From the NCBI GenBank assembly GCA_903865745.1, contig CAIPKV010000042.1, positions 1 to 33,766 on the forward strand: a DNA stretch of 33,766 nt, given 5' to 3'. The notes beneath the pieces were generated by a model, which saw only the letters and a list, made by a program, of their open reading frames with translations, had not been told where the DNA came from and made no database searches. Shown in pieces: positions 5,964-10,714 of this stretch. The translations under genes were made by a program, and so were the position numbers. Source of the DNA: an uncultured Verrucomicrobia subdivision 3 bacterium (lineage in GTDB: Bacteria; Verrucomicrobiota; Verrucomicrobiia; Limisphaerales; UBA11358). Numbering within the stretch: the stretch's first letter is position 1; each line of letters opens with the position of its first letter.

Positions 5964-7202
5964 ATGGAACGACTGCCTGGATTCCGCGATTTTTATCCCG
6001 AACCGCTCCCGCACACCGATGTCTGGAGCGCGGACGCACGCCAATACATTTTTGATCTGTGGCGCAAAATTGCCAAGCGCTACGGCTTCCGCGAATACGA
6101 CGGCCCGCCGCTGGAACCGCTGGAACTGTTCACGACGAAGAGCGGCGAGGAGATTGTCGGGCAACTTTACAACTTCACGGATAAGGGCGAACGCGCCGTG
6201 TCGCTCCGCCCGGAAATGACGCCGACGCTCGCGCGCATGGTGGCCGCGCATGAGCGCAATTACAAAAAGCCCATCAAGTGGTTCGCCATCCCGCAACTGT
6301 TCCGCTACGAGCGCCAGCAGAAGGGCCGGCTGCGCGAGCATTTTCAGTTCAACGCCGACCTCATTGGCGAGACGGATCCGGCGGCGGATGCGGAGTTGAT
6401 TGCGCTTCTCATTGATACGCTGCGCGCCTTTGGCTTGACGGCGGAGGATTTTGTCATCCGCCTGAGCAGCCGCAACGCGTGGCAGGATTTCTTCAAGCAC
6501 GGCGGCGGGGACCACGCGCACGAATACGTGTTTTTCCAGATCATCGACAAGCTGGAACGCTCAGCCCCGGAGGAATCGGAAAAGAAACTGGCCGCGCTCG
6601 GATTTTCGCTGGAAAAAGTCAACGCCTTCATCGAGTCCGGGGCGCCGACGGTGGAACTGCAAAGTATCCTGACCAACCTTGCGGCGCGCGGGCTGAAGGA
6701 TTTCGTGAAGATCGATTACCAGGTGATTCGCGGTCTGGCCTATTACACCGGTGTGGTGTTCGAGGCGTTTGATCGCAAGGGTGAGTTTCGCGCCATCGCC
6801 GGTGGCGGCCGCTATAACAACCTGGTGAAGCTCATCAGCGGCGGCAAGGTGGATTTGCCCGCGCTCGGCTTCGGCATGGGCGATGTGGTGTTGGCGGAGT
6901 TGCTGAAGGCGCGCGGCCTGCTGCCGAAGTTCGATTCGCAGATGGATGTATTTGTGTTGATTGAGGACGAGGCCTTGCGCCCGATTTCGCTCAAGCTGGT
7001 TCATGATTTGCGGGCGGCGGGCTATGCGGTGGAGTATCCCATCACGCCGGCCAAGCCGGACAAGCAGTTCAAGCGCGCACAGGAATTGAAGGTGGCCCAC
7101 ACCGCGCGACTGGAGAATGACGATTACGTGCGCATCCGCAATGTGTCGACGCGCAATGAAATTGTCACCGGCCTGGCGGGCGCGGCGAATCATCTGGGAT
7201 AA
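5964..7202 (+). CDS. hisS: Histidyl-tRNA synthetase
   Basis: A 412-aa class II aminoacyl-tRNA synthetase that charges tRNA-His. Motif 1 region: RYGFREYDGPPLEPLELF. Motif 2: LFRYERQQKGRLREHFQFNAD, with the FRYER arginine that contacts ATP. The histidine-specific motif is RGLAYYTGVVFEAFDRKGEF, then IAGGGRYNNLV (HisA/motif 3 region). The C-terminal anticodon-binding domain is present (VFVLIEDEALRPISLKLVHDL onward), which argues against the regulatory paralogue HisZ. The length is typical. The start ATG at 5964 has no Shine-Dalgarno site. The upstream promoter region is occupied by the repeats at 5773-5915. Confidence 0.95.
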   Translation: MERLPGFRDFYPEPLPHTDVWSADARQYIFDLWRKIAKRYGFREYDGPPLEPLELFTTKSGEEIVGQLYNFTDKGERAVSLRPEMTPTLARMVAAHERNYKKPIKWFAIPQLFRYERQQKGRLREHFQFNADLIGETDPAADAELIALLIDTLRAFGLTAEDFVIRLSSRNAWQDFFKHGGGDHAHEYVFFQIIDKLERSAPEESEKKLAALGFSLEKVNAFIESGAPTVELQSILTNLAARGLKDFVKIDYQVIRGLAYYTGVVFEAFDRKGEFRAIAGGGRYNNLVKLISGGKVDLPALGFGMGDVVLAELLKARGLLPKFDSQMDVFVLIEDEALRPISLKLVHDLRAAGYAVEYPITPAKPDKQFKRAQELKVAHTARLENDDYVRIRNVSTRNEIVTGLAGAANHLG

Positions 7203-7231
7203 ACGGGGCGAAACTTTCTCCGACAACTTGT

Positions 7232-7267
7232 TCACCGCCGGATTTTGACGGTCTTGGGGCGGTGAAT
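7232..7267. terminator. Hairpin downstream of hisS
   Basis: TTCACCGCC (7232-7240) and GGCGGTGAA (7259-7267) form a perfect 9-bp stem with an 18-nt loop, 30 bp after the hisS stop. There is no T-tract after it, so it may stabilise the mRNA end or assist Rho rather than terminate intrinsically. Confidence 0.4.
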
Positions 7268-7372
7268 AACTGTCCGGCTGGAATGGTTAAAGGACTTGAT
7301 TTCATTAGGGAATTCAAATTGTTCACAACTTCTTCACTCCGCAATTTTGGTGAATAAAGGGTGCATATCAAT

Positions 7373-7403
7373 TTGTGGGCAGAACCGAAAATTCTGCTAA
7401 GAT
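7373..7403 (+). promoter_or_regulatory. Candidate extended -10 promoter of the structured RNA, with palindrome
   Basis: A -35-like TTGTGG (7373-7378), a 19-bp spacer and TGC-TAAGAT (extended -10, hexamer 7398-7403). The spacer contains the inverted repeat GCAGAA (7379-7384) / TTCTGC (7392-7397), placed where a repressor or activator would act. Predicted start near 7411. The hexamers are imperfect, so this is a proposal. Confidence 0.35.
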
Positions 7404-7410
7404 GTATACA

Positions 7411-8270
7411 GTTCATTGAAAGAACGAAGCGGGCGGCGAAGAGTAACATCGGCGTGGTTCGTTTCAGGATAATCCCAGGCGACTGGGGAAAAGCCGGGTC
7501 AGGCTGGTTGATCCGACTCCTCTAAAACCGGAGCGCAAGTTCCGGCGAGGCAGAATTCACCAGTTCCTCTGGCATGTTCGCACATGCCATACGCGAATGA
7601 GGGACTTGGCAGCAAGCCGCGATAAGAAGCCGCGGCGAGTTGAGTCAAGTAGTCCGGAGAAGTTTCGGTTCCGGGCGAATCGCAGTCACCCAGAGGGTGA
7701 ATAGTTGCTACTGTGCATCAGCACGGTGCGGCCGGCTCTGGCGGGGTTGAATCAAATCAAAACCGCCCAAAGAAAAACGCCGAAAGGCGGACAAAAGGAG
7801 CGGACGCATCGGGAAGAACACGGAAACTCGGCAGGTTTCGTGAAAAACTTCCAAGCGCCGGCGATGTTAAAAACGACACCGCTGGACTGTGAGATAAAAA
7901 GCAACTTGAGAGAGAAGAGGCGAGACCCGTGGCTAAGGGCGAACGCACCGCCAACAGCGGTGGCCGACCCGGAGCCAGTGGTCAAGACGCGAATGAAATT
8001 CGCAGGCGTGTCTTGACCTGGTTGGCAGGCCGGTGGCGCAACCACCAGCCGAAGCGAGCTGAAAAGCCTCACTCAAAATCCGCGCGGCGCACGCCGCCGG
8101 ACGGCCCTGCTACGAGGCCGATAACTCCGCTTGCCGTGGAGAATGGCGTCGGGAAGCCGGCAGCCCCGCAAGGGCGCGCCTAATGCCGGTTCGGGAAAGA
8201 GAGCATGGCGAACTCCCATCCCCCATTTGTCCCGGTCCGACCGCAAGGTTGGGCCGGGACTTATTGTTTT
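7411..8270 (+). ncRNA. Candidate large structured non-coding RNA (about 860 nt), unknown class
   Basis: This is the 1.16-kb gap between hisS and cysK. No frame in it resembles a protein, but stable hairpins are dense. They include CCCAG/CTGGG (7474-7487), CCGGAGC-GCAA-GTTCCGG (7528-7545), GGCATGT/ACATGCC (7571-7588), TCACCC/GGGTGA (7686-7700) and CGCC-GAAA-GGCG (7778-7789). Further along are CACCGC/GCGGTG (7946-7962) and a two-part hairpin with GGTCAAGAC/GTCTTGACC (7980-8018) enclosing GCGAAT/ATTCGC. Several loops are GNRA tetraloops. It ends in a strong terminator (8229-8270). I looked for hallmarks of RNase P RNA, tmRNA, SRP RNA, cobalamin riboswitch and group II intron domain V and found none. 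The alternative is an unusually long regulatory leader of cysK. The 5' end is estimated. Confidence 0.5.
8229..8270 (+). terminator. Strong intrinsic terminator ending the structured RNA
   Basis: A continuous 14-bp stem, 8229-8242 with 8247-8260 (two G-T pairs), capped by a GCAA tetraloop (8243-8246) and followed by TTATTGTTTT. It works only in the plus direction, since the other side is not T-rich. It separates the structured RNA from cysK, which starts 97 bp later. Confidence 0.85.
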
Positions 8271-8366
8271 AGGGCATAAAAACAATGATGAATTAAAACT
8301 TGCCCGCGCAGTTCTTTTCGCCAAGATTTCTGAACGCGGCACTGAATCATCCAATCAAATTAAATT

Positions 8367-9350
8367 ATGGGACGTATTTACAACAACATCATCGAGACCG
8401 TCGGCCGTACGCCGCTGGTTAAACTTAACAAGGTCACCGCCGGTGTGGATGCCACGATCCTGCTCAAGTGCGAGTTTTTTAACCCGCTCGGCAGCGTCAA
8501 AGATCGTATTGGCATGGCGATGATTCAGGATGCAGAGCAGCGCGGCGTCCTTAAAAAAGACACCGTCATCATTGAGCCGACGAGCGGCAACACCGGCATC
8601 GCGCTCGCCTTCGTCGCCGCGGCCAAAGGCTACAAATTGATTTTGACGATGCCTGAAACCATGTCGCTCGAGCGCCGCACTTTGCTGGCGATGCTGGGTG
8701 CGAAACTGGTTTTAACTCCTGGCGCAGAAGGCATGAAGGGCGCGATAGCACGCGCGGAGGCGCTGGCGAAGGAAACACCGAACTCTTGGATTCCACAACA
8801 GTTTAACAATCCCGCGAATCCGGCCATTCATTCGAAGACTACGGCGGTGGAGCTTTGGGAAGACACGGATGGCAAGATTGATATCCTGGTCGCCGCCGTT
8901 GGCACGGGCGGAACCATCACTGGCTGCGTGGAAACCATCAAACCAAAGAAAAGTTCGTTCCAGGCGATTGCCGTGGAACCAAAAGATTCACCGGTGATTT
9001 CCCAGACGCTGGCTGGCCAACCCGTCAAACCGGGTCCGCACAAGATTCAAGGCACTGGCGCGGGCTTTGTGCCCGGCAATCTGCATTTGAAGGACAGCGC
9101 GGGCAACCCGCAGATTGTCGAATGCGTGCAGGTTTCCAATGACGACGCGTTTGCGATGGCTCGGCGGCTGGCGAAAGAAGAGGGTATTTTGGTTGGCATC
9201 TCGACGGGTGCGAATGTCATCGCCGCCATCGAAGTGGCCAAACGTCCCGAAAACAAGGGTAAAACCATTGTAACCATCGCCTGTTCGACGGGCGAACGGT
9301 ATTTGAGCACCGCGCTTGCGGCGGAAGCGCGGGCGGAGGTCGGTGGCTGA
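8367..9350 (+). CDS. cysK: Cysteine synthase A (O-acetylserine sulfhydrylase)
   Basis: A 327-aa fold type II PLP enzyme that makes cysteine from O-acetylserine and sulfide in the cytoplasm. The PLP lysine is K45 in NPLGSVKDR, the substrate loop is [13 protein letters not shown], and the phosphate-binding loop is [10 protein letters not shown]. The [13 protein letters not shown] segment near the C-terminus is also typical. The length matches CysK, and there is no C-terminal CBS domain. The start at ATG 8367 has no Shine-Dalgarno site. The strong terminator just upstream means it is either transcribed from a promoter in the 97-bp gap or controlled by readthrough of that terminator. It is followed by its own terminator. 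Confidence 0.95.
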
Positions 9351-9565: not shown

Positions 9566-10714
9566 ATGAGCGAAACGCAAGCTAACGGCGATAAAACGCC
9601 CAATGCCAACTATGGTGCCGGCTATCTCGAGATTTCCGAGAAGGGCTTCGGCTTCCTGCGCACCGCGCAAAACCATTTTCATCCTAAGCCCACGGACATT
9701 TTTGTGACCCCGGACACCATCCGGCGCAGTTTTCTGCGCGAGGGTAGCTTTGTCGAGGGTGCCACCCAGCCACCGCATCGCGGTACGAGCCCGCAGCTCA
9801 AGTCCGTGGACAAAGTTAATGCCATGACTTTTCAGGATTACACGAAGGCTGTGCGCTTTGAGAACCTGACGAGCATTGATCCGATTGAAAAATTCAAGCT
9901 GGAGACCACCCCGGAATTGATTGAGACGCGCGTGATTGATCTGGTCACGCCGATCGGCAAAGGTACGCGCGGCATCATCGTTGCGCCGCCGCGTACGGGC
10001 AAGACCACCATTCTTAAGCAGATTTGTAATGCCATCACGACGAACCATCCAGAAGTCCACGCAATGGTGCTGCTAATTGACGAACGCCCGGAGGAAGTCA
10101 CCGATTTCCAGCGTTCGGTACAGGCTGAAGTCGTCGCGTCCTCGAACGACATGGATCTGGATACGCACGTCCGCCTGTCCCGTTTCATGATTGAACGGTG
10201 CCGCCGAATCGTTGAATCCGGCAAGGACGTGTTTGTGCTACTCGATTCACTCACCCGCGTTGCCCGCGCTTACAACAGCGTCCACAGCGGCAGCGGTCGC
10301 ACGATGTCCGGTGGCGTAGATGCCCGTGCGTTGGAAATTCCGCGCAAAATGTTTGCCTCGGCGCGCAAGATTGAGAACGGCGGGTCGCTGACCATTCTGG
10401 CGACGGCGCTGGTGGATACCGGCAGCCGCATGGATGAGTTGATTTTCCAGGAATTCAAGGGCACGGGTAACATGGAGTTGATTTTGGATCGCAAACTTTC
10501 TGACCGCCGTTTGTATCCCGCGATTGATATTCCGAAGTCCGGAACGCGCAAAGAAGAAAAGCTTTTTCCTGCCAAAAACCTTGAAGCTATTCGCAAGCTC
10601 CGGCGCACGATGGTGGACTTGAATCCTATCGAGGCGATGGAGACACTCACCGCCGCCCTTAAGAAATTCAAGACCAACGATGAATTTCTGGCCAAGATGG
10701 AAAAGGGTTCGTGA
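9566..10714 (+). CDS. rho: Transcription termination factor Rho, short form
   Basis: A 382-aa hexameric RNA translocase that ends Rho-dependent transcripts. The RNA-binding cold-shock-like OB domain begins already at about residue 16 (YGAGYLEISEKGFGFLRTA), so the N-terminal helical Rho_N domain found in E. coli Rho is absent. The motor domain has Walker A VAPPRTGKTT (K147), Walker B VFVLLDSLTR and the secondary-channel Q-loop SGSGRTMSGGVDARALE. FQEFKGTGNMELILDR follows. All catalytic parts look intact. The next gene starts six bases after the stop, so rho and the WYL regulator are probably co-transcribed. Confidence 0.95.
   Translation: MSETQANGDKTPNANYGAGYLEISEKGFGFLRTAQNHFHPKPTDIFVTPDTIRRSFLREGSFVEGATQPPHRGTSPQLKSVDKVNAMTFQDYTKAVRFENLTSIDPIEKFKLETTPELIETRVIDLVTPIGKGTRGIIVAPPRTGKTTILKQICNAITTNHPEVHAMVLLIDERPEEVTDFQRSVQAEVVASSNDMDLDTHVRLSRFMIERCRRIVESGKDVFVLLDSLTRVARAYNSVHSGSGRTMSGGVDARALEIPRKMFASARKIENGGSLTILATALVDTGSRMDELIFQEFKGTGNMELILDRKLSDRRLYPAIDIPKSGTRKEEKLFPAKNLEAIRKLRRTMVDLNPIEAMETLTAALKKFKTNDEFLAKMEKGS

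Follow-up and report, generated by a model that had tools for sequence, protein, structure and literature searches.

The stretch at positions 7411-8270, between hisS and a cysK-like gene, is a genuine large structured RNA gene, and it is a member of the known family MISL (Rfam RF03079) and not of a new class. By the window we mean the whole 33,766-nt stretch of DNA that was analysed, a contig of an uncultured Verrucomicrobia subdivision 3 bacterium (CAIPKV010000042.1). Sequence and fold of the RNA are conserved in relatives, independently of any particular neighbouring gene. The RNA has an extra 5' domain, pseudoknots and a covarying terminator, and a conserved array of DnaA-box-like sites lies upstream of its promoter. 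What is likely new relative to the Rfam covariance model is the probable start and end of the RNA, the extra folds and the upstream site pattern.

Results

A complete MISL RNA between hisS and cysK

We found by cmscan that RF03079 (MISL RNA) matches 7467-8216 on the plus strand with 581.9 bits, against a gathering cut-off of 274.6 (E = 2.1e-176). The model is complete in the window (positions 1-751 of 751) and not a fragment, and 159 of the 170 mapped Rfam pairs are canonical there. The RNA is single-copy in the source genome (a 3.63-Mb assembly of 87 contigs). The predicted fold of 7411-8270 reached -386.7 kcal/mol, compared with -322.5 (sd 6.8) for 20 dinucleotide shuffles (z = -9.4).

A sequence-only reading of this DNA had described a structured RNA of about 860 nt here, and its position, size and structure are borne out by the fold. 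It had counted at least eight hairpins; the RF03079 structure mapped onto the window sequence has well over eight. The two-part hairpin that it saw at 7980-8018 is largely an Rfam helix, with a loop that also takes part in a pseudoknot. It had seen no protein-like frame, in agreement with our finding that neither of the two ORFs tested inside the RNA (103 aa on the plus strand, 106 aa on the minus strand) had a Pfam match. Both of the neighbours that it named were identified by Pfam: hisS upstream (5964-7202, +; PF13393, 1.1e-38) and a cysK-like gene of the PALP family downstream (8367-9350, +; PF00291, 6.1e-76). Conservation and covarying pairs in relatives, which it had proposed to look for, were found on 133 sequences. 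It had also called the RNA one of no recognised class and suggested an Rfam search, and the match of RF03079 over the whole model at the above E-value ruled out a new ncRNA class.

MISL was reportedly discovered by Weinberg et al. in 2017. A MISL-like word in the Salmonella literature is a different gene name. The literature that we searched contained almost nothing on MISL, and no function for the family was found in it. In the Ribonanza report (PMC10925082), windows of a MISL RNA are chemically mapped for structure.

Ends of the transcript and the 5' domain

Loci were compared using 80 stretches of up to ~20 kb around relatives together with the window (81 loci). In the aligned flanks of these loci the sequence was conserved past the ends of the Rfam model. 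The whole MISL transcript would cover about 860 nt (7411-8270, +), judging by a -10 element at -13, a 5' motif, a 5' helix and a covarying terminator, and we infer a start at ~7411. Of the 81 loci, 63 carry the pattern GTTC.TTGA.AGAAC upstream of MISL, whereas none of 10909 control windows has it. A looser form, TC.TTGA.A, was found in 74 of 81 loci and in 65 of the 10909 controls. TC.TTGA.A, taken strictly, was missing within 110 nt in seven loci, five of which had small changes or carried it just outside that range, while L225 and L266 had no motif. In the assembly the 5' motif occurs once, at 7411-7425, and its first base (7411) is where the sequence-only reading had started the RNA.

The motif is predicted to form a 5' hairpin, GUUC-AUUGAAA-GAAC (7411-7425, +), whose loop 7417-7420 pairs with 7556-7559. 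All four of these pairs can form in 126 of 133 sequences, with four Watson-Crick types at one position (loop/partner UGAA/UUCA in 77, UGAU/AUCA in 33, UGAC/GUCA in 5, UGAU/GUCA in 5 and UGAG/CUCA in 3), and the other 7 have a mismatch (UGAU/CUCA in 5, UGAA/CUCA in 2). With a score of 113 the pairing falls short of the four-pair nulls, since three of the pairs are nearly invariant; the variable one is significant by itself. The hairpin is followed by helix P0 (7426-7465, +), which is absent from the Rfam covariance model. A terminal helix of at least 5 bp was found in 69 of 74 loci, with changing letters, compared with 30% of mononucleotide shuffles, and the covariation of 7426-7429/7462-7465 (252) was reached by 0 of 20 nulls.

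At the 3' side, a scan found the intrinsic terminator that had been claimed before, with a 14-bp stem at 8229-8260 and a T-rich tail (8229-8270, +). Such a scan alone proves little, as shuffles of the region gave 2.2 terminator-like sites on average. The helix 8229-8260 covaries, however, with a score of 307 that 0 of 20 nulls reached, and the earlier view of a large, independent structured ncRNA with its own terminator was upheld. A C-rich run (~CCCAYCCCC; 8217-8228 in the window), located around the Rfam 3' end and ahead of the terminator, was seen by eye in most loci.

The promoter is the weakest claim for the window sequence alone. A promoter-like site had been reported before the RNA, but a sigma-70 scan of the window sequence gave no plus-strand site; what stands of that claim is a TANNNT element conserved across relatives. 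In 48 of 79 loci this hexamer begins 16-10 nt ahead of the 5' motif, where 200 shuffles gave 12.15 loci on average and 21 at most; in 38 of 79 it lies exactly at -13. In the window the candidate -10 element is TAAGAT (7398-7403, +), and a possible weak -35, TTGTGG (7373-7378, +), is separated from it by a 19-nt spacer.

Covariation supports new helices and pseudoknots

For the analysis of covariation, 276 profile matches were reduced to 245 full ones, 173 unique ones and 133 after thinning at 92% identity. The seed profile left out four of the 81 loci (L225, L266, L269, L272). Segment 7907-7930 is biased, since the set includes loci that were fetched by a fixed pattern inside it. We used a tree-aware null, in which the substitutions of each branch were replayed at random sites; 12 null alignments served for the significance of pairs and 20 further ones for that of helices. 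At E<=0.1, 31 covarying pairs were found among the 133 sequences: 20 in the Rfam structure and 9 in new helices. The remaining 2 fall outside both, and one of them, 7922-8065, is canonical in just 53%.

Helices were scored by their best four-pair windows of stacked pairs against the 20 nulls, whose maxima were 131-169. Six new helices exceeded all 20 null alignments, P0 and the terminator among them. An H-type pseudoknot at 7578-7582/7592-7596 (+) scored 264 (0/20 nulls; 97% canonical cells). A second one, 7703-7708/7901-7906 (+), scored 259 (0/20 nulls; 97% canonical cells) and reads GGUUGC/GCAACC in 69 of 133 sequences. The third, 7887-7892/8000-8005 (+), scored 206 (0/20 nulls; 96% canonical cells), and its strand 8000-8005 sits in the loop of hairpin 7980-8018. 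An extra helix, 7858-7861/7882-7885 (+; score 203, 0/20 nulls), encloses a short Rfam hairpin. Three pseudoknots are therefore well supported by the alignment, with others weaker. A possible pseudoknot at 8108-8112/8144-8148 (+) was rejected as a supported helix: it is nearly always pairable (99.8% canonical cells), yet its score of 129 was reached by 20/20 nulls. Rfam helix 7917/8070, with a covariation of 34, did not exceed the nulls either, which is expected where there is little sequence variation and where the pattern-fetched loci fix letters.

Gene neighbourhood

Genes around the 81 loci were crude longest-ORF guesses, and the first downstream gene was counted if it had at least 150 aa. 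The immediate neighbours of MISL vary among loci while the RNA stays, as expected of an independent gene in intergenic DNA, and no constant chromosomal partner gene was found by synteny. The commonest neighbour clusters are all minorities (M23 peptidase 22, SecDF-head-like 17, cysK 16, Rho 13 and HrpB 12 of 81 loci). A Rho factor gene lies at 9566-10714 in the window, two genes past MISL, and at most 1.5 kb from MISL in 12 of 81 loci.

The sequence-only reading had offered, as its other option, an exceptionally long leader controlling cysK. In favour of such a long cis-acting, riboswitch-like leader, the cysK-like gene of the window starts 151 nt downstream of MISL. Counted as above, the first gene after MISL is cysK-like in 13 of 78 loci, all from the window's order, which supplied 49 of the loci; the count rises to 15 of 78 if two loci with a cysK ORF drawn over the MISL end are added. 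A different gene comes first in 65 of 78 loci, rather than the same gene or pathway at a constant position. This first gene shares the strand of MISL in 44 of 78 loci and lies on the opposite one in 34, and in the window the terminator separates the RNA from cysK. The changing gene context refutes the cysK leader as a general role; together with the terminator and the variable downstream gene and strand it leads us to reject this reading, to which we give almost no credence.

Distribution among genomes

Of 387 genomes of the phylum, 31 have MISL (28 of them above the curated cut-off). In the order it was found in 128 of 293 sampled genomes (122 above the cut-off), and in the window's family in 34 of 49 (all one genus, and all 34 above the cut-off); the three genome sets overlap. 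None of 14 control genomes had it. Among good genomes of the order it was present in 83 of 153 and not found in about half; the search was filtered and the assemblies incomplete, which limits these absences. Among the matches listed (80 of 117 core-pattern contig stretches), 79 have Verrucomicrobiota-type names and one is named just 'bacterium'. Plasmid and phage records searched with 7411-8270 gave no match.

Most genomes with MISL have a single match. Two full copies were found in G155 and G330, while additional matches in G410, G421, G431 and G454 are split or partial. In each genome with two copies (L208 and L209 in G330; L207 and L218 in G155), one copy has DnaA-box-like sites and the other does not.

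An array of DnaA-box-like sites upstream of MISL

Upstream of the RNA the window has two inverted pairs of DnaA-box-like sites, the first at 7228-7269 (TTGTTCAC at 7228-7235, +; TTATTCAC at 7262-7269, -) and the second at 7319-7357 (TTGTTCAC at 7319-7326, +; TTATTCAC at 7350-7357, -). The exact inverted pair occurs twice in the 3.6-Mb assembly, both times upstream of MISL. The density of TTRTNCAC upstream of MISL is 2.44 per 200 nt (81 loci) compared with 0.025 in 5650 control windows. Relative to the model start, the sites come in a recurrent order: plus strand at ~-250 (36 of 81 loci), minus at ~-200 (29), plus at ~-150 (36) and minus at ~-125 (44). Of the 81 loci, 34 have inverted pairs within 60 nt, and none of 4284 control windows does; by group, such pairs were found in 27 of 49 loci of the window's order, 7 of 22 of family f5 and 0 of 10 others. 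Five of the 81 loci (L208, L215, L218, L259, L263) had no DnaA-box-like site upstream of MISL. The ninth base of the sites is C in 115 of 215, compared with the A of the classical DnaA box in 84.

We then counted exact pairs genome-wide in 27 genomes, 21 that bear MISL and six of the same genus without a MISL match, and found 26 distinct places (our own count). In the MISL-bearing genomes 19 of 24 distinct exact pairs lie within ~260 nt upstream of MISL. The five pairs elsewhere are in G482, G389 (twice), G422 and G018, and five of the 21 genomes (G392, G403, G529, G444, G099) have no exact pair anywhere. Four of the six genomes without a MISL match have none, while G424 and G405 have one each. 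The upstream array is largely MISL-specific.

The regions upstream of dnaA have like sites at two recurrent positions, with at least one in 10 of 11 full-flank loci (our own count) and none in L298. As like sites recur upstream of dnaA, DnaA would be the likeliest binder of the putative sites upstream of MISL, though the many sites with C as ninth base and the second-copy genes that lack sites (L208, L218) speak for caution. Binding by another transcription factor is possible, if somewhat doubtful. The preference for C at the ninth base suggests such a factor, and inverted site pairs are typical of dimeric repressors. Many of the sites match the DnaA box, however, and like sites precede dnaA in the same genomes; moreover, the spacing between the pair halves varies, unlike that of a dimer site. 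The array could also serve as an independent DnaA-binding locus of the chromosome (a datA- or DARS-like titration or reactivation site, or a replication landmark) with MISL as passenger or helper, which we consider unlikely. In its favour, many loci carry a dense set of sites in a recurrent order. MISL also lies near a plus-to-minus GC-skew switch in G099 (within ~0.2 Mb) and G018 (~0.3-0.5 Mb), each sampled at 20 places; G529 had too noisy a skew to be of use. In 73 flanks the skew declines slightly, from a mean of +0.005 left of MISL to -0.012 right of it (right lower in 47 of 73; Wilcoxon p = 0.023). This slight fall is the opposite of what an origin gives, and gene orientation could cause it. 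A replication origin at MISL was rejected because an origin-like skew rise across MISL and linkage to dnaA are both missing, dnaA being ~0.16 to 2.2 Mb away in nine genomes taken as circular. The wider reading as a DnaA-binding locus has against it, besides, that the sites keep set distances from the MISL start despite changing gene contexts, and that most of the same-genus genomes without a MISL match also lack the exact pair. As a separate observation, the GC-skew switches of G099 and G018 are away from dnaA, with MISL at most ~0.5 Mb from the plus-to-minus one.

MISL letters on RNA-phage contigs

In viral scans we found MISL on three ssRNA-phage contigs, always on the 5' side and in the same sense, with three different breakpoints. 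L192 (1-5357) has the whole Rfam model (543 bits) and a replicase (PF03431). L193 (1-2347) has MISL letters up to ~480 (profile HMM, 282.8 bits) and a maturation protein (PF03863). L442 (1-4330) has MISL letters up to ~320 (profile HMM, 246.3 bits), ORFs in RNA-phage order and a YGDD motif in the last ORF. Identity to the closest host copy is 82.6, 88.7 and 84.8%, respectively. At gathering level Rfam gave no MISL match on L193, L442 or L443, the last being IMG/VR 3300016750_000508, where a 5' MISL piece (1-187; profile 96.9 bits) stands at the start of a stretch from a 15-kb contig classed as viral. L362 and L444 matched the pattern and were rejected as MISL by the profile. Relatives of the L192 replicase numbered 295; MISL was absent from the other 79 that were kept, and 20 contigs (19 of these 79, plus L362) had no gathering-level Rfam match.

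These joins are most likely reverse-transcription (cDNA) chimeras, as cDNA template switching predicts exactly such an arrangement; possibly they reflect capture of host RNA by RNA phages. ssRNA phages have no DNA stage, and the joins would therefore imply sense MISL RNA in the samples concerned. What bears on expression is these MISL letters joined to RNA-phage contigs, from organisms other than the window's.

Discussion

We consider it rather probable that MISL is a stand-alone trans-acting structural RNA of ~860 nt, with a transcription that is probably tied to DnaA. RNA polymerase would start at ~7411 and stop at the terminator after 8260, and DnaA, or a protein with a like site, would bind the inverted pairs just upstream. 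Such binding would couple production of MISL to growth state or replication. The RNA would fold into one compact knotted body and act in trans, providing the structural core for a particle of RNA or of RNA and protein; it would act neither by coding, nor as a leader, nor by simple antisense pairing. The role of particle core is suggested by compactness and by analogy. In a bolder, replication-coupled version, DnaA at the paired sites would set the level of an abundant, multiply pseudoknotted 860-nt particle-core RNA in Verrucomicrobiota, which RNA phages of these hosts may have acquired at their 5' ends; as a whole this is improbable.

Two further readings concern the RNA itself. The 5' motif could be a boxA, with MISL transcribed, like rRNA, by a NusB/S10-type antitermination complex. 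Part of the evidence is suggestive: the MISL motif (TCATTGAAA in 32 and TCCTTGA[AT]A in 29 of 74 loci) resembles the rRNA boxA of related genomes; no 16S was found in the window's own genome. In these relatives TGCTCTTTGAAA or GTTCTTTGAAA precedes 16S in 6 of 10 loci, and the spacer has TTCTTTGACA or CTCTTTGACA in 8 of 10. boxA elements are described ahead of CRISPR arrays and of long non-coding RNAs (PMC7862264), and for gamma-proteobacteria the consensus is given as GYTCTTTAANA (PMC5725501). The distant loci L215-L217 and L219-L224 have TCTTTGA, with an intact boxA core. The window and most relatives, however, have UCAUUGA or UCCUUGA in place of the core CUUURA, an A or C replacing a boxA U that the rRNA copies found keep, and the motif loop covaries with 7556-7559. 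The conservation of the motif is therefore explained as RNA structure, and boxA is kept as a rival that we hold distinctly unlikely. A large ribozyme is a putative alternative at the level of the RNA's action. Its size, several pseudoknots and strongly conserved junctions are in keeping with catalysis, but no known ribozyme family in Rfam matches, and we find this reading hard to favour. We prefer the structural RNA in trans.

With a likely 5' end, extra helices and a terminator, a construct can be designed for transcription, probing and imaging of the RNA as a whole. The upstream array of DnaA-box-like sites offers a first lead on regulation, and it makes function testable by asking whether the MISL level tracks DnaA and the cell cycle.

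MISL shares TTRTTCAC sites with DnaA-regulated promoters such as that of dnaA; it differs in having inverted pairs before an RNA gene and often C as the ninth base. rRNA boxA leaders have a likeness in the 5' motif of MISL, but in most MISL copies a core base is changed, and the loop covaries with a segment of MISL. OLE, ROOL and GOLLD are, like MISL, large, knotted, non-coding bacterial RNAs; none of the three matched the window at gathering level, or was among six matches at E up to 10 in 7200-8370. OLE is reported to assemble into an RNP associated with the membrane (PMC10898510). Homo-oligomeric RNA complexes are reported for all three, and GOLLD and ROOL are described as encoded in phages and prophages (PMC12286853). 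In contrast to these phage-encoded RNAs, as so described, MISL 7411-8270 matched no phage or plasmid record, probable chimeras aside. The nearest known system is RF03079 itself, which matches the window RNA over its full length with the same helices. Its covariance model spans 7467-8216 and holds no pseudoknots, whereas the RNA of the window adds pseudoknots, a 5' hairpin and helix, a terminator and upstream sites that fall outside the model.
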